From: Moraxellaceae bacterium
Lineage (GTDB): Bacteria > Pseudomonadota > Gammaproteobacteria > Pseudomonadales > Moraxellaceae
Direction of reading: 5' to 3'
DNA length: 64,000 bases
Assembly: GCA_004173455.1 (NCBI GenBank)
Contig: SECL01000001.1
Location: forward strand, 1-64,000
Shown here: in pieces, positions 9,486 through 33,037 of the stretch
How the letters are laid out: every line of letters begins with the position of its first letter
Numbering within the stretch: position 1 is the stretch's first letter
Translations under genes and position numbers: made by a program
Notes under the pieces: generated by a model
The model's database searches: none
The model's input: the letters and a program-made list of their open reading frames with translations, nothing else
What the model was told of the DNA's origin: nothing

Positions 9486-9501
9486 TGTTCCACGTGAAAC
9501 A
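9486..9501. promoter_or_regulatory. parS: parS-type site A
   Basis: TGTTCCACGTGAAACA fits the general bacterial parS consensus TGTTNCACGTGAAACA exactly. It lies in the intergenic gap between yheS and the CinA-like gene, about 7.5 kb from oriC. It is one of six such sites in the window and the expected target of chromosomal ParB. Confidence 0.85.
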
Positions 9502-15255: not shown

Positions 15256-16644
15256 TTAACTCTGCAATAAACGCAATAAATTTTGATAATCTTCGTTAAA
15301 CGCAGGATCAGATTGACACAACTCTCTTACCTTGTCACAGGCATGCATTACCGTGCTGTGATCACGGCCACCAAAGGCGTCACCGATATCTGGAAAACTG
15401 TCACTGGTGAGTTCACGCGCCAGCCCCATGGCAATCTGGCGCGGCCGTGCGTAAATCCGCGTGCGCTTGGGGCCAATCAACTCTTTTAAGGGAATACGGA
15501 AAAATTCACTCACCACGCGCTGGATGTTGTCAATACTCATGGTACGGGCACGAATAGCCAGCACATCCTTTAAGGATTCGCGCACCACGTCTAGATCAAT
15601 GGTTGTGCCCTTAAAACGCGAAATGGCTACCACCTTGTTGAGTGCCCCTTCCAGCTCACGCACATTGGCCACCACTTGCTGGGCAATAAACAAAGCACAA
15701 TTACGCGGCAGTTCAATCCCATTGCTTTCGGCTTTTTTGAGTAAAATTTCAATACGGGTTTCCAGATCTGGCGGTTCAACCCCTACCGACAACCCCCATG
15801 AAAAACGCGACACCAAACGCGGATCCAGCTCAGTGAGTTCTTTGGGATAACGATCTGAGGTCAAAATAATCTGTTTGGATTCATCCAGTAATGCATTGAA
15901 AGTATGGAAAAATTCAACAAGACTTGCCTTTCCTGTAAGCAAATGAATGTCATCAACCAACAACAAATCCAGCGAACGACAATTTTGCTTAAACTCATCA
16001 ATTTTGCCACGCTGCAAAGCACTAACAAAGTCCTGTACAAAATTTTCCGAGGTCATGTAAATCACTCGGGCATTGGGCTTGGCCTGCAATAAAGCATTAC
16101 CCACGGCATGCATCAGGTGAGTTTTACCCAGACCGGTCGGTCCATACAAAAACAACGGATTGTGCTGCGACTCGCCCAACTGGGTGAGTACCCGACGACA
16201 GGTTTCTGCTGCCATCTGGTTGGAACGGCCTTCCACAAATAAGGCAAAGGTAAATTGTGGATTAAGTTGACGTTTTTTCTGGGCTGGCAGATTTTTTGCC
16301 GGATCGGCCTCAACCACAGTAGCTTTACGCTCCCGCCCTGCTCCATGGACTGGTTCTACTGCCGTCGCAGGACTCACTGTTTGAGCAGCTTGCGAAATAA
16401 TTTCTCCAGGCCGTGAATCAACCTGAATATGCACCTCAGAAATACGGCCATTACTGGCTTTATTCACCAAATGGCGAATCTGATCCAGATGATGTTCCTG
16501 AATATAACGTGTCCAGTAATGATTTGGCGCAAGCAACACCAGTGCGTTGTCACGTTCCTCAGCATGAAGCGGACGAATCCACATCGTGAATACATTATCC
16601 GACAACTCATGCCGCAGTGTATTCAGACATTCTGCCCAGATCAT
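15256..16644 (-). CDS. dnaA: Chromosomal replication initiator protein DnaA
   Basis: AAA+ initiator that binds DnaA boxes and opens oriC. The 462-residue protein has an N-terminal interaction domain (1-80), a variable linker (about 80-125), an AAA+ core with GPTGLGKT (168-175) and LLLVDDIHLL, and a C-terminal helix-turn-helix with the DnaA signature GGRDHSTVMHACDKV. It reads away from the origin, which lies directly upstream (16.65-17.48 kb), so its promoter sits among the DnaA boxes and autoregulation is likely. Confidence 0.97.
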   Translation of the reverse strand: MIWAECLNTLRHELSDNVFTMWIRPLHAEERDNALVLLAPNHYWTRYIQEHHLDQIRHLVNKASNGRISEVHIQVDSRPGEIISQAAQTVSPATAVEPVHGAGRERKATVVEADPAKNLPAQKKRQLNPQFTFALFVEGRSNQMAAETCRRVLTQLGESQHNPLFLYGPTGLGKTHLMHAVGNALLQAKPNARVIYMTSENFVQDFVSALQRGKIDEFKQNCRSLDLLLVDDIHLLTGKASLVEFFHTFNALLDESKQIILTSDRYPKELTELDPRLVSRFSWGLSVGVEPPDLETRIEILLKKAESNGIELPRNCALFIAQQVVANVRELEGALNKVVAISRFKGTTIDLDVVRESLKDVLAIRARTMSIDNIQRVVSEFFRIPLKELIGPKRTRIYARPRQIAMGLARELTSDSFPDIGDAFGGRDHSTVMHACDKVRELCQSDPAFNEDYQNLLRLLQS

Positions 16645-17479
16645 GACACCCCCATAGAAACGATAAACAATAAAAAAAATAAATTAACGATCAACAGCAC
16701 TAATTAAATACGGCATATCTCATGCACATCCGGGATTTTATAAGGTCGCACTTCCTAGTGAGGGCAGCATTCTAACCAACTTATCAACATCTGTCATGAC
16801 ACCCTCCTTATGCGTGATGCTTTCTTGAACATTAAATTCATTTTTTACGAATTTAAATTTAAAACTACCTGTGGAAAACTTATTGGATAAAGATGTGGAT
16901 AAAAGCATACCCAAAGTTATCCACAATTCATACACAAATCTTCACTATTTTTATCCACATGATAAGTTATTATTTTAATTAATAAATATGGTGATTTCCA
17001 CAGAAAAACAGCTCCCTAATAATAATAACTAAGAATTTTAGAAATTTAAATTTATATTACGGTGCTGTATTTGTGGGGATAACTCAGATCACTTAAATAA
17101 TTTTGAAATGAATTTAAATTTAAAAAATTAGGATGAAGCCGCCACAGGGTAATGACTATTTGATAAAAATATTATCAGATTGTGGATAAGTTTCAAGAAT
17201 AAGTTTATTATTTTAATCATGCTATTGTATTTTAAGTGATTTATTTTACAACTATGCTTGTGAATAATTTTGTGGATAACCCTTAAAGTCATTTTCAATA
17301 GGTATTTATTTAAAAAATAAACATTAAAATCAATTTGTTATTTAATAGATGGAAGTTATCATCATTATTCGGTTTTGCTGGTTAGCACAAAAAAATAGCC
17401 ATAAACAAGGGCTTTTGTTTGACACAGCCGACAGAGGTCAATAAAATCGCGTTCTTTTTGTCAGCTTTGAGTTTTCATC
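16645..17479. other. oriC: Chromosomal replication origin region (oriC)
   Basis: This is an 835-bp AT-rich gap between divergent dnaA and rpmH. Perfect DnaA boxes (TTATCCACA) occur at 16917-16925 and 16951-16959 (+) and at 16894-16902, 17181-17189 and 17271-17279 (-). Variants occur at 16870-16878 (TTTTCCACA, -), 16994-17002 (ATTTCCACA, +), 17259-17267 (TTATTCACA, -) and 16781-16789. AT-only runs such as 16849-16863 and 17110-17125 (GAATTTAAATTTAAA) are candidates for the unwinding element. A short minus-strand ORF in the gap looks spurious. Confidence 0.93.
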
Positions 17480-27890: not shown

Positions 27891-29066
27891 ATGGCACCTA
27901 ACGACAATTTGAAAGTGAACTCGGCTATGGTTAACACTGTTGGCATTTTTGGTGGTGGACAGCTTGGCCGGATGCTGGCACAGGCCGCCTTGCCGCTGGG
28001 TTTGCGATGTACTTTTTATGAGGCTGGCAGCGACTGTCCATCCGCTGCGCTGGGTCAGGTGATTGACAATACTCAGACTAATGCACTGCACGCTTTTATA
28101 CAAAGTGCTGATGTGTTTAGCCTTGAGTTTGAAAACACGCCACTGGCCGATGCCGATGCACTCAGCCAGCACAAAACCCTGCATCCGCCACGACAGGCAC
28201 TGGCCATAGCGCAACATCGCCTGTCGGAAAAAGCCCTGTTTGACCAGCTGGATATTCCGGTGGCGCCGTATTCAGCCGTGCATAGTTTGCATGATTTACA
28301 GCAAGCAGCCGAGCAGCAAGGTTTGCCGCTGGTAATCAAAACCGCAACCGGTGGCTATGACGGCAAGGGACAGTTTGTCATTCGTGAAACCGCGCACATT
28401 GAGCAGGCATGGCATGAGCTGGGTCAAGCTGCGCCATTGATTGCCGAAAGTTTTGTGCGCTTTGATCGTGAAGTGTCGATTATTGCCGTGCGGGGGCAAG
28501 ATGGTGAAATTCGCACCTGGCCACTGGCTGAAAATCATCATCATCAGGGCATTTTGTCGCACTCCATTGTGCCTGCGCCCCACAGTCAAGATTTGCAGCC
28601 GATAGCCACGGATTATATTACCCGGCTGCTCAATCACTTAAATTATGTCGGTGTGCTGACGCTGGAGCTGTTTGTCACTGAGCAGGGTTTGCTGGCCAAT
28701 GAAATGGCGCCACGGGTGCATAATTCCGGGCACTGGAGCATTGAAGGCGCAGTGTGTTCACAGTTTGAAAACCACATGCGTGCGGTGGCTGGTTTGCCGC
28801 TGGGTTCTACCGAGCTGGTTAAGCCTACCGTCATGGTCAATATCATTGGCCAGCATCCTAAAACGTCTGATATTCTGGCGCTGGATGGCGCACATTTACA
28901 CCTGTATGGTAAAACCGAGCGGACTGGCCGCAAGCTGGGGCATATTACCCTGATGCCGGTAGACAGCAGCCAGTTAAACCATTTATGTCAGCAACTTGCC
29001 ACGCTGTTGCCGCAACCCTTGGCCTTAACACCGGATATGGCCATTCCAGTGACTGATCAGGGTTAA
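27891..29066 (+). CDS. purK: 5-(carboxyamino)imidazole ribonucleotide synthase
   Basis: ATP-grasp enzyme that carboxylates AIR with bicarbonate. The 391 residues have GIFGGGQLGRMLAQAA near residues 18-33, the ATP-grasp core VIKTATGGYDGKGQ, and NEMAPRVHNSGHWS. AAGGA lies 8 nt before the ATG; a second in-frame ATG at codon 13 gives a start closer to other PurK proteins and is the main alternative. It is followed by a strong terminator about 125 nt downstream. Confidence 0.95.
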   Translation: MAPNDNLKVNSAMVNTVGIFGGGQLGRMLAQAALPLGLRCTFYEAGSDCPSAALGQVIDNTQTNALHAFIQSADVFSLEFENTPLADADALSQHKTLHPPRQALAIAQHRLSEKALFDQLDIPVAPYSAVHSLHDLQQAAEQQGLPLVIKTATGGYDGKGQFVIRETAHIEQAWHELGQAAPLIAESFVRFDREVSIIAVRGQDGEIRTWPLAENHHHQGILSHSIVPAPHSQDLQPIATDYITRLLNHLNYVGVLTLELFVTEQGLLANEMAPRVHNSGHWSIEGAVCSQFENHMRAVAGLPLGSTELVKPTVMVNIIGQHPKTSDILALDGAHLHLYGKTERTGRKLGHITLMPVDSSQLNHLCQQLATLLPQPLALTPDMAIPVTDQG

Positions 29067-29264: not shown

Positions 29265-29660
29265 TTAAGGCCGTTCCGCATATTGTGGCAAGCCATCGCA
29301 AATCACATCCCATTCGGCTTTGGAGGCTGTGAACACATGCAGGCTGGGGCCATGCCGTAAGGGCGTATCCAGTGTGCCCAAGCGCAAGCGATAATGGGCT
29401 GGATCAGTGTCGCGCTTGCTATAAATGGGCGCACCACACTCGCCACAAAATACCCGCTTTACGCCGGCACTTGATGAAAATTCCTTTAAGCTGGTTTCGC
29501 CTTTTAGCAACTGAAAATCTGCACGTTTGATGGATGCATTTACTGCATAGGCGCTACCATTGGCTTTGCGGCAACGCTGGCAATGGTAAATCCCCACCTC
29601 ACTAATGTCGCCATGAATCTGATACGCCACCGCACCACACAAGCAGGTTCCTCAATGCAT
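29265..29660 (-). pseudogene. GFA family zinc-binding protein, native start interrupted by TGA
   Basis: Glutathione-dependent formaldehyde-activating (GFA/CENP-V) fold protein. Zinc ligands are visible as YHCQRCRKANGS and VFCGECGAPIYS. The natural start appears to be ATG 29658-29660, with GAGG 5 nt upstream, but the reading is M-H-stop-GTCLCGAVAY because codon 3 is TGA (29652-29654). Family members keep G-x-C-L-C at exactly this point. Without read-through, only a TTG start at 29642 remains, which loses the first cysteine of CLC. The rest (125 codons) is intact, so the lesion is recent or is a sequencing error. Confidence 0.7.
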
Positions 29661-29702
29661 GATTACCTCGTTTCATTATGACTTATCTAATGATGATAAT
29701 CG

Positions 29703-29711
29703 TTATCCACA
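29703..29711 (+). promoter_or_regulatory. DnaA box at the palindrome locus
   Basis: A perfect TTATCCACA lies in the gene-free gap between the GFA gene and the transglycosylase. A second perfect box on the minus strand is at 29800-29808, and a TTATTCACA variant is at 30098-30106 (-). Confidence 0.7.
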
Positions 29712-29739
29712 ATTTCAAGTGATATGTTCCATAATTTTA

Positions 29740-30087
29740 TTTGAATTTAAAAGTTCTTATTTTTAAATTCAAACCCTGAAAATACTAAAATCACCATGCT
29801 GTGGATAAGTGTTGGCAGCTAAAAACGACAGTTAAAATGAATTCAAAGTTTTAAATTTAAACTTTGAATTCATTTTTAAGCAATCGAAACGACGTGACAA
29901 TCAAAAAATATGCGCTTAGCCAAAAACTATGAATTTAAAAACGGGATTTTTAAATTCATAACTGGCACATTCCAGCGCATTATTTTAAATTTAAAAGTAA
30001 GTAGAATGAATTTAAACTTTTGAATTCAAATTTTATGAATAGGTTAAAAGATTTGAATTTAAAAGTTAGTTTAAATTCAAATCTTTT
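29740..30087. repeat. Array of AT-rich inverted repeats (GAATTTAAA family)
   Basis: Four long inverted repeats occur in 350 bp: 29740-29752/29761-29773 (13-bp arms, perfect), 29834-29850/29860-29876 (17-bp arms, perfect), 29928-29941/29947-29960 (14-bp arms, perfect) and 30046-30063/30070-30087 (18-bp arms, perfect). All are built from GAATTTAAA or its close relative GAATTCAAA. Short palindromes at 29982-29995 and 30019-30030 lie between them. No T run follows consistently and no gene is present in 29661-30341. Related GAATTTAAATTTAAA words occur in oriC (16849-16863, 17110-17124). Confidence 0.8.
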
Positions 30088-30341
30088 ATTTTGAATTTGT
30101 GAATAAGGTTCTTGCATCAATTTGACCAGCGTGCGCACCGCAGTCTGTTTTAAGCCTATTTCAATCAAAATTGTGTTTAAGCGATTTTCATGATTAAAAA
30201 GGCAAGATAATGAAAAAGACTACATATTAAAACCAAGCGGATTTTTGCCCTGATTACGTGCCATGTTAAGGTAGTAAAAATCCAGTAAGTCATGGCATTT
30301 TTATGCATGTGGCTTACTCAATCACGCTTTAAGGTAAAACA

Positions 30342-31742
30342 ATGAAACGTAGTGGCATGACCAAAAATTTTCCCCTATTGGCATTGGCTGGCTTACTGGC
30401 TGTTCCGGTCAGTAGTTTTGCTGTTGAAGTCCAGAGTGCTGATGACCAGTTTCTGGGCTGTTTGAGTAATTTACGTGGTGACGCCATTGCCGCTGGGGTG
30501 TCCGGTCAGGCCTTTGATCAGTACACCGCCAATCTTGATCCGGATATGAGTGTGATCGACAAGCTGAATTACCAGCCCGAATTTAGCACGCCAATCTGGG
30601 ATTATTTGTCTGGTCTGGTGGATCAGGAGCGGGTGGATCTGGGGAAAACCAAACTACAGCAAAATCGTGAGGTGTTAAACCGCATTGCAGCGCAATACGG
30701 CGTAGAACCTGCCGCAGTGGTAGCCGTCTGGGGCGTAGAAAGCAATTTTGGTGATATTTCCGGTAAATACTCACTGGTACAGGCTTTGGGCACCTTAAGC
30801 TGTTATGGCCGCCGCCAGGGTTATTTTCGCACCGAGCTGTATGCGGCCTTACGCATCTTGCAGGCTAGCGATATTGCCGAAAACAAATTAAAAGGATCTT
30901 GGGCCGGGGCGTTTGGCCACACCCAGTTTATGCCGTCGACCTTTGAGCGACTGGCCGTAGATTTTGATGGTGATGGCCGCCGCGATATTGTCGATAGTGT
31001 GCCGGATGCACTGGCCTCGACGGCTAATTTTCTCAAGAAATCCGGCTGGCAAACGGGTTTGCCATGGGGCTTTGAAGTGCGCTTGCCGGAAAGCACCAGT
31101 ACCGAGGGCGAAGGGCGTCGTAGCAAACGCCCACTGGCCACTTGGCAGCAACGTGGCCTGACCCGTGTAGATGGTTCACCGCTGGTGCAGGGTAATTTAA
31201 CGGCTTCCAGTATGGCGGGCTTACTGGCACCAGCCGGGGCAGATGGCCCGGTATTTCTGGTGTTTAAAAATTTTGATGCGTTTTATAGTTATAACGCGGC
31301 GGAGAGCTATGCAATGGCAATTGCCCATTTGTCAGACCGGCTCAAAGGCGCTGGCCCGTTTGTTAGTGCCTGGCCCACCGATGATCCGGGAACGTCAAGG
31401 GCTGAACGCCGCGAAATCCAGCAGTATTTGCTGGCCAAAGGCTATGATATTGGTGAGCCGGATGGCCTGATTGGGGACAAATCGCGGCAAGCAATTCGAC
31501 AGGAACAGACCCGCTTGGGCTTGCCCCAAACCGGTAGGGGAGGGCAAAAAATATTGCAGGCTTTACGCCGTGATGCTGGCCAGCCAAGCATCTCTACAAA
31601 TGGTCAGAACACAGCGGTCAATCAACCATTAAATGCGCCTGTTATGCCTGAAGCGTCGTTAAGTACCACAGACAATGGCACATTAAAAATTGAAACCACC
31701 ATTCGCGCAATGCCAAAAAATATGCAAGACGAACCCTTTTAA
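30342..31742 (+). CDS. Lytic murein transglycosylase, MltB type
   Basis: Cleaves the MurNAc-GlcNAc bond of peptidoglycan with formation of 1,6-anhydro-MurNAc. The 466-residue protein has a signal peptide (about 1-27, ending SFA), a catalytic domain with Glu133 in GVESNFG and GAFGHTQFMPSTF, and a C-terminal peptidoglycan-binding domain (about 353-410, EIQQYLLAKGYDIGEPDGLIG). No lipobox cysteine is seen, so it is probably periplasmic rather than a lipoprotein. Its products feed AnmK and Mpl. The gene-free palindrome locus lies just upstream. Confidence 0.92.
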   Translation: MKRSGMTKNFPLLALAGLLAVPVSSFAVEVQSADDQFLGCLSNLRGDAIAAGVSGQAFDQYTANLDPDMSVIDKLNYQPEFSTPIWDYLSGLVDQERVDLGKTKLQQNREVLNRIAAQYGVEPAAVVAVWGVESNFGDISGKYSLVQALGTLSCYGRRQGYFRTELYAALRILQASDIAENKLKGSWAGAFGHTQFMPSTFERLAVDFDGDGRRDIVDSVPDALASTANFLKKSGWQTGLPWGFEVRLPESTSTEGEGRRSKRPLATWQQRGLTRVDGSPLVQGNLTASSMAGLLAPAGADGPVFLVFKNFDAFYSYNAAESYAMAIAHLSDRLKGAGPFVSAWPTDDPGTSRAERREIQQYLLAKGYDIGEPDGLIGDKSRQAIRQEQTRLGLPQTGRGGQKILQALRRDAGQPSISTNGQNTAVNQPLNAPVMPEASLSTTDNGTLKIETTIRAMPKNMQDEPF

Positions 31743-33021: not shown

Positions 33022-33037
33022 TGTTCCACGTGGAACC
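33022..33037. promoter_or_regulatory. parS: parS-type site E
   Basis: TGTTCCACGTGGAACC differs from the perfect palindrome at the last base only. It is intergenic, 40 bp after the DUF815 gene stop and about 1.1 kb from site D. Confidence 0.8.

Follow-up and report, generated by a model that had tools for sequence, protein, structure and literature searches.

The Dam/GATC-SeqA system of Escherichia coli combines an orphan adenine methylase with palindromic sites in oriC whose spacing follows the helix. CcrM/GANTC in Caulobacter, and the GATC-bearing RctB iterons of Vibrio chromosome 2, are further cases in which methylation is tied to replication control. Other elements of E. coli are built on DnaA boxes: datA has an IHF site between its boxes, and the DARS core consists of three closely spaced boxes. 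To our knowledge SeqA is absent from Acinetobacter and Alkanindiges. Dam is absent from Acinetobacter according to the available text of PMC10287943, and among the literature matches listed we found no description of how Acinetobacter limits initiation without it.

AamA is an orphan adenine methylase of A. baumannii ATCC 17978, for which the target TTTRAATTYAAA was proposed from SMRT sequencing of the wild type and an aamA mutant (Yang et al. 2023, PMC10483419). In the available part of that study, methylated sites numbered 59 and 41 in two runs, with none in the mutant. Thirty-eight of the 59 and 37 of the 41 fell in two regions of dense methylation and highest signal, region 1 (29 and 28 sites) and region 2 at rnpA/dnaA (9 in each run), and these were interpreted in terms of promoter control; the main text, as available, nowhere uses the word oriC. 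Transcripts of rnpA, dnaA and pitA rose 1.5-2.4-fold without AamA. The mutant grew more slowly and formed filaments in one medium, as did the complemented strain, and complementation did not fully restore either the growth rate or the expression of rnpA, dnaA and pitA (PMC10483419). Similar motifs are reported from further A. baumannii strains (PMC10287943, in which AATT motifs are partly methylated, and PMC13227989); of the six motifs given in the available text on the Acinetobacter strain 65 methylome, none contains AATT (PMC5364224).

Here we describe an array of AamA-type sites in a stretch of 64,000 nucleotides from an Alkanindiges genome (GCA_004173455.1, contig SECL01000001.1, positions 1 to 64,000), referred to below as the window. 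By motif, enzyme and neighbouring genes the array belongs to the AamA methylation clusters, and methylation of its sites is predicted. Judged by analogy, its logic resembles that of Dam/SeqA and its layout that of datA or of a titration region near the origin, and it is a member of neither group.

The likeness to Dam/SeqA lies in the orphan adenine methylase, the palindromic oriC sites and the helix-following spacing; the methylase is AamA, however, with a 12-bp target, and most of the sites lie in a satellite array outside oriC. The CcrM/GANTC and RctB/GATC systems differ from the AamA array in enzymes, motifs and lineage. Like datA, DARS1 and DARS2 of E. coli, the array is a gene-free locus that contains several DnaA boxes and stays at a broadly similar distance from oriC. 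Unlike datA, 14 of 15 arrays (that of the window included) have no exact IHF consensus WATCAANNNNTTR; unlike DARS, there is no three-box core, the boxes of the window starting at 29703 and 29800 with a variant at 30098. Methylase sites dominate, which is true of neither datA nor DARS, and an exact inverted pair of boxes 88-106 bp apart is present in 9 of 15 arrays, the four from Alkanindiges among them. The origin-near region of high DnaA-box density in E. coli also places boxes near oriC, where they suit titration, but is described in the available text as a broad rise in density (Nat Commun 2025, PMC12371093), whereas the array is a single compact element with methylation sites. Regions 1 and 2 of ATCC 17978 (PMC10483419) have the same 12-bp target, and their 29 and 9 sites equal the counts in the array and oriC of A. 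baumannii VB958; region 1 and the array are very probably one orthologous locus.

Composition and conservation of the array

The array (Table 1) is flanked by a GFA-domain gene running leftward (29265-29642) and by mltB running rightward; in the gap between the two (29643-30341) an ORF scan of the window found no reading frame of at least 80 amino acids. The original prediction had rightly called this region gene-free; its further statement that the palindromes serve no flanking gene need not hold, since with this arrangement of neighbours promoters are possible. All four of the perfect inverted repeats that it described are present. Their arms measure 13 bp at 29740-29752/29761-29773, 18 bp within 29834-29876, 14 bp at 29928-29941/29947-29960 and 19 bp at 30045-30063/30070-30088, a range of 13-19 bp and not the 13-18 bp given. 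Every palindrome arm reduces to TTTRAATTYAAA, and it is this 12-bp palindrome, not the long arm, that is the conserved unit of the array. The window contains 10 copies of the word GAATTTAAA where 1.08 would be expected (array 7, oriC 2, elsewhere 1), and the words that had been noticed as common to the array and oriC do occur twice in oriC, starting at 16849 and 17110.

Table 1. Coordinates of the array, its sites and its surroundings in the window. Matches are to the 12 positions of TTTRAATTYAAA.
Feature	Position	Strand	Remarks
oriC	16645-17479		between dnaA (15256-16644, -) and rpmH; 7 DnaA boxes, 2 perfect AamA-type sites
AamA-type site TTTAAATTTAAA in oriC	16852-16863		
AamA-type site TTTAAATTTAAA in oriC	17113-17124		
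purK	27891-29066	+	second conserved neighbour of the array
Whole array	29700-30095		12 sites of at least 10/12, 7 of them perfect, and 2 conserved DnaA boxes
DnaA box TTATCCACA, left of inverted pair	29703-29711	+	invariant in 4/4 species
AamA-type site TTTGAATTTAAA	29740-29751		perfect
AamA-type site TTTAAATTCAAA	29762-29773		one outer T lost in G003
DnaA box TTATCCACA, right of inverted pair	29800-29808	-	97 bp on; invariant in 4/4 species
Weaker site AATGAATTCAAA	29836-29847		10/12
AamA-type site TTTAAATTTAAA	29850-29861		perfect
Weaker site TTTGAATTCATT	29863-29874		10/12
Site TATGAATTTAAA	29928-29939		11/12; equals motif VI of the A. baumannii methylome
Site TTTAAATTCATA	29949-29960		11/12; reverse complement is TATGAATTTAAA
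AamA-type site TTTAAATTTAAA	29984-29995		alignment gap in G003
Weaker site AATGAATTTAAA	30005-30016		10/12
AamA-type site TTTGAATTCAAA	30019-30030		perfect
AamA-type site TTTGAATTTAAA	30052-30063		TTTGAATTCAAA in 3 relatives
AamA-type site TTTAAATTCAAA	30070-30081		R/Y variants in 3 relatives
DnaA-box variant TTATTCACA	30098-30106	-	this genome only; probably not part of the array
mltB-type lytic transglycosylase gene	30342-31742	+	adjoins the array in Acinetobacter too

A BLAST-type search placed the 421-bp stretch at a single locus in its own genome and at a single locus in each of the three other Alkanindiges genomes. The array is thus present in 4 of 4 genomes of the genus, once in each, as expected of an element conserved among relatives and not of a generic repeat. 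In the four-species alignment, invariant columns make up 124 of 132 in the sites and 18 of 18 in the two DnaA boxes, and 100 of 212 in the rest; the sites starting at 29836, 29949, 30052 and 30070 are altered among the four species with RAATTY retained.

The spacing of neighbouring perfect sites piles up at 14, 20, 25, 30 and 36-37 bp. A spacing period of about 5.0-5.8 bp was matched by 0 of 2000 jittered sets for eight arrays and by 0 of 5000 for 25 dissimilar arrays, in tests that used partly homologous spacings, many of them inherited together; a 10.5-bp period was not significant (307 of 2000 jittered sets). Such a grid is suggestive of protein assembly along one face of the helix or both. 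The spacing patterns vary by clade and the dense cluster stays, which points to selection acting on the ensemble.

Relation to oriC

Cumulative GC skew, followed up to the array, has its minimum at 16-18 kb, at dnaA-rpmH. The dnaA-rpmH gap is therefore taken as oriC, and the array lies 12.8 kb off on the rpmH side. Exact parS sequences (TGTTNCACGTGNAACA) at window positions 9486, 10842, 13504, 31889 and 45484 flank oriC and the array, with a near-match at 33022.

Places matching TTTRAATTYAAA are concentrated at oriC and the array in all four Alkanindiges genomes, and elsewhere they are at or below the number for a reversed-pattern control. Genome-wide there are 15 in G000, the genome of the window (array 7, oriC 2, elsewhere 6; control 6), 13 in G001 (array 8, oriC 2, elsewhere 3; control 5), 14 in G002 (array 7, oriC 3, elsewhere 4; control 11) and 14 in G003 (array 6, oriC 2, elsewhere 6; control 8).

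The shorter RAATTY reached 1.2-6.0 times the number expected from composition in the oriC of 17 genomes that carry the methylase or a relative 49-57% identical to it (9 of them at p of at most 7/400), and 0-1.2 times in 5 genomes without the methylase. The excess in the four Alkanindiges oriCs was modest, 1.2-1.6-fold, and not significant; in G014 (genus g12), which has a 49% relative of the methylase, oriC holds 13 copies against 2.2 expected. In gammaBOriS, TAAATTTAAATTTA is the genus motif of Acinetobacter oriC and is annotated as a DnaA trio (available text of PMC7174414). This word contains the AamA core, and may be an AamA site rather than a DnaA trio.

The methylase and the A. baumannii methylome

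The genome of the window encodes an AamA ortholog (C2:71117-72418) that is 82.7% identical to the A. baumannii protein and belongs to the D12 family, with FAGSG and DPPY motifs that are intact in 18 of 18 orthologs examined; the same genome encodes a second D12 methylase (C69). The methylase gene lies between ribD and ribE. In A. baumannii VB31459 nrdR is upstream and holC downstream, both of which are among the named neighbours of methylase genes in the available text of PMC10483419. Orthologs are present in all four Alkanindiges genomes (97-100% identical to that of the window's genome) and in all 66 Acinetobacter genomes (77-85%); elsewhere in the family 13 genomes have weaker methylase relatives, five of them at 49-57%, and 116 have none.

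In A. baumannii VB958 (CP040042.1), 29 motif-A strand-sites lie between the lytic transglycosylase gene and purK, 20 kb from dnaA. These comprise 27 of the published subtypes and 2 of TTTGAATTCAAA; the oriC gap has 9 strand-sites and the remaining 39 kb examined has 4. The VB958 array has one exact DnaA box and also contains TATGAATTCAAA, which the available text of PMC10483419 gives for region 1 only. The counts of 29 and 9, together with TATGAATTCAAA in the array, point to region 1 being the array and region 2 being oriC, an assignment made from motif counts in another strain and thus a strong match rather than a proof.

DnaA boxes

Exact TTATCCACA boxes are strongly enriched: 15 arrays, 9,185 bp in all, contain 31, and 325,982 bp of flanking DNA contain 3. 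None occurs in 560 AT-rich windows of 500 bp taken, with overlap, from the flanks. At least one exact box lies within 150 bp of 43 of 45 arrays, the exceptions being G171 and G211. In the window, the two perfect boxes and the variant that had been noticed are where they were said to be, the variant in this genome only. The proposed link to oriC and DnaA is likewise upheld: the array is near oriC in two genera and rich in exact boxes, which makes a DnaA-titration or datA/DARS-like role a candidate.

DnaA boxes also cluster at other loci. In genera g5 and g12, 2-6 exact boxes are clustered approximately 3.7-4 kb from oriC (L070 4075-4179, L073 15863-15883, L072 4030-4143, L083 7051-7071); in G007 and G014 the cluster falls within a coding sequence with a Pfam match to MnmE, an origin-near satellite inside a gene. 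In three Acinetobacter genomes (G191, G077 and G205) perfect sites form a further small cluster, which includes two exact DnaA boxes and lies on the dnaA side, approximately 7 kb away from oriC (L028 6298-6458, L096 6868-7009, L091 7649-7783). G171 has 2 perfect sites and 3 exact DnaA boxes remote from oriC (L097 5585-5694, 1.69 Mb).

Distribution in the family

We take genus g15 of our set to be Acinetobacter, its array matching named A. baumannii records. Site pairs, defined as two sites within 30 bp anywhere in a genome, were found in 67 of 199 family genomes (4 of 4 Alkanindiges, 63 of 66 Acinetobacter and 0 of 129 other family members), against 2 for the control pattern, a count that cannot tell the array from oriC. 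A set of 51 genomes was therefore followed locus by locus: 4 Alkanindiges, 13 from the site-cluster listing and the rest via the position of dnaA or oriC; G060, G113 and G127, the last with a short contig, stand outside this set. The array was located in 45 of the 51, with 4-15 perfect sites in each, and all 45 arrays have purK and/or mltB within approximately 1.5 kb. Its distance from oriC ranges over 12.8-22 kb among the Alkanindiges genomes; of 40 measurable Acinetobacter genomes (G157 left out), 39 have it at 17-27 kb. The exception is G205, with 67 kb; there the array adjoins mltB, away from purK, so its place may partly follow gene order.

No array was found in the DNA searched of three methylase-carrying genomes: G042 (40 kb upstream of oriC), G141 (approximately 30 kb) and G099 (approximately 24 kb to the contig end; purK and mltB are present there, apart from each other). 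The array therefore seems dispensable, and would be at most an auxiliary control. In G110 and G153, among the 6 of 51 without a located array, the contigs stop approximately 20 kb and 7 kb upstream of oriC; in G125, purK, mltB and the array are all absent from the stretch examined at 9-29 kb, and its genome has 10 site pairs. Many sites in Acinetobacter fall outside the array and oriC: the 43 sites of G135 divide into 14 in the array, 4 in oriC, 4 clustered near 251 kb and 21 scattered, with 10 for the control. In the outgroup G013, purK alone is approximately 20 kb from oriC, with no array or exact DnaA boxes there, which suggests that the element originated in the common ancestor of Alkanindiges and Acinetobacter, in a gap that already lay near the origin.

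The neighbours of the array vary within Alkanindiges, with a GFA-domain gene on the left in G000 and, in G001, a gene of the RlaP family (RNA-repair nucleotidyltransferase type; L022 8292-9092) between the array and mltB. The only phage-collection matches to the array are CAKLQF020000029.1 and CAKLQH020000026.1, named Acinetobacter phage MD-2021a; both contigs bear purK and mltB together with the array and resemble bacterial chromosome. Plasmid matches number only 4, all of them A. baumannii records resembling mis-filed chromosomes. The PLSDB entries CP040042.1, NZ_CP064203.1, NZ_CP077849.1, NZ_CP104448.1 and CP035931.1 are "plasmids" of 0.5-4.1 Mb, apparently chromosomes or pieces of them; CP040042.1 has dnaA, dnaK and purK, and CP035931.1 has nrdR-ribD-methylase-holC.

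Alternative explanations

We consider the array to be probably an origin-linked, methylation-marked DnaA-control element, and weigh this against four other readings. Under the view published for A. baumannii, AamA sites tune the promoters of neighbours such as mltB, and the array would be a large regulatory region. It does abut mltB in Acinetobacter and has stayed with that gene, apart from purK, in G205; moreover, loss of aamA brought a 1.6-fold change in mltA expression, which was restored, and changes in other genes (PMC10483419, available text). We nevertheless think local regulation quite unlikely, because the RlaP-family gene intervenes in G001 and mltB is approximately 1 kb off in G002, because 7-14 perfect methyl sites together with DnaA boxes exceed an ordinary operator, and because the only other concentration of sites in Alkanindiges is oriC. 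The half-turn phasing of the sites and the position of the array inside the parS-marked origin domain would fit a chromosome-organising or anchoring site, at which a nucleoid or segregation protein holds the phased palindromes and AamA methylation modulates or follows its binding. This we rate as unlikely: the exact DnaA boxes and the sites shared with oriC are not explained by anchoring alone, this reading offers no candidate protein, and the sites are not canonical ParB sites. A parS/ParB centromere was rejected, since none of the five exact TGTTNCACGTGNAACA in the window lies within the array; so was a dispersed REP-like repeat, there being one array locus per Alkanindiges genome.

The long palindromes themselves had suggested a cruciform, and might equally form an RNA hairpin or terminator. 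In four arrays the arms are longer than a shuffle that keeps the sites would readily give, the null reaching the observed arm in 0 of 60 trials for G000, 2 of 60 for G002, 0 of 60 for G203 and 3 of 60 for G135; in the other 11 of 15 arrays, however, it does so in 9 to 60 of 60 trials. Arm pairing also decays in relatives, from 14/14 to 9/14 and from 19/19 to 15-16/19, as the 12-bp sites persist near consensus, and the long palindromes are on both grounds largely a by-product of adjacent palindromic sites. The array contains no terminator-like sites and no Rfam matches at gathering score. A structure built on the long arms is accordingly very improbable. A second origin module, which had also been proposed, would account for the DnaA boxes and AT-rich words common to the array and oriC. 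It is contradicted by the cumulative GC skew, which is lowest at 16-18 kb and not at 30 kb, with no GC-skew switch at the array, and a BLAST search of the array against its own genome gives no match to oriC; we see hardly any chance that the array is an origin. The earlier reading is thus partly supported, and it missed the identity of the repeated words as adenine-methylation sites of AamA.

Proposed function and significance

For the array as a DnaA-control element, we infer methylation of the sites in Alkanindiges, a protein that reads this methylation and an effect on initiation, and suggest that they may work together as follows. A replication fork would pass oriC and then the array. As the array has the sites of oriC and is copied soon after it, both would become hemimethylated in sequence, until AamA acts. 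A putative methylation-dependent TTTRAATTYAAA-binding protein would assemble on sites spaced on a grid of approximately half a helical turn and, together with DnaA on the embedded boxes, would hold back or titrate DnaA and so help to limit initiation. Titration or inactivation of DnaA at the boxes, gated by the methylation reader, appears the likeliest role. The slower growth, the filaments and the raised rnpA, dnaA and pitA transcripts of the aamA mutant, with growth and these transcripts incompletely restored by complementation, bear on this role indirectly.

A wider proposal is possible, though we hold it tentatively: that Acinetobacter and Alkanindiges have an independent epigenetic control of replication, composed of AamA, the putative TTTRAATTYAAA reader, oriC, and a phased satellite array with DnaA boxes which, copied just after initiation, would serve as a timer or as a sink for DnaA or the reader. 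Among the titles and abstract openings listed, we found no account of an origin-near array of AamA sites as an origin-linked element. New here are the findings that the array is conserved close to oriC, that it has DnaA boxes and that it occurs outside Acinetobacter.

Two published facts that had stood unconnected, the 12-bp target of AamA and the TAAATTTAAATTTA word of Acinetobacter oriC, are joined by this reading, and the published methylome is reinterpreted, most of its methylated sites lying in regions that match the array and oriC. It also names a cis-element to delete and a bait DNA for the reader, in a family in which Acinetobacter includes a major hospital pathogen. If the proposal is true, origin marking would be the main function of AamA, and the other effects reported for it would be indirect. 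The array and its DnaA boxes near oriC suggest a previously unrecognised epigenetic control over the time at which the chromosome is copied.
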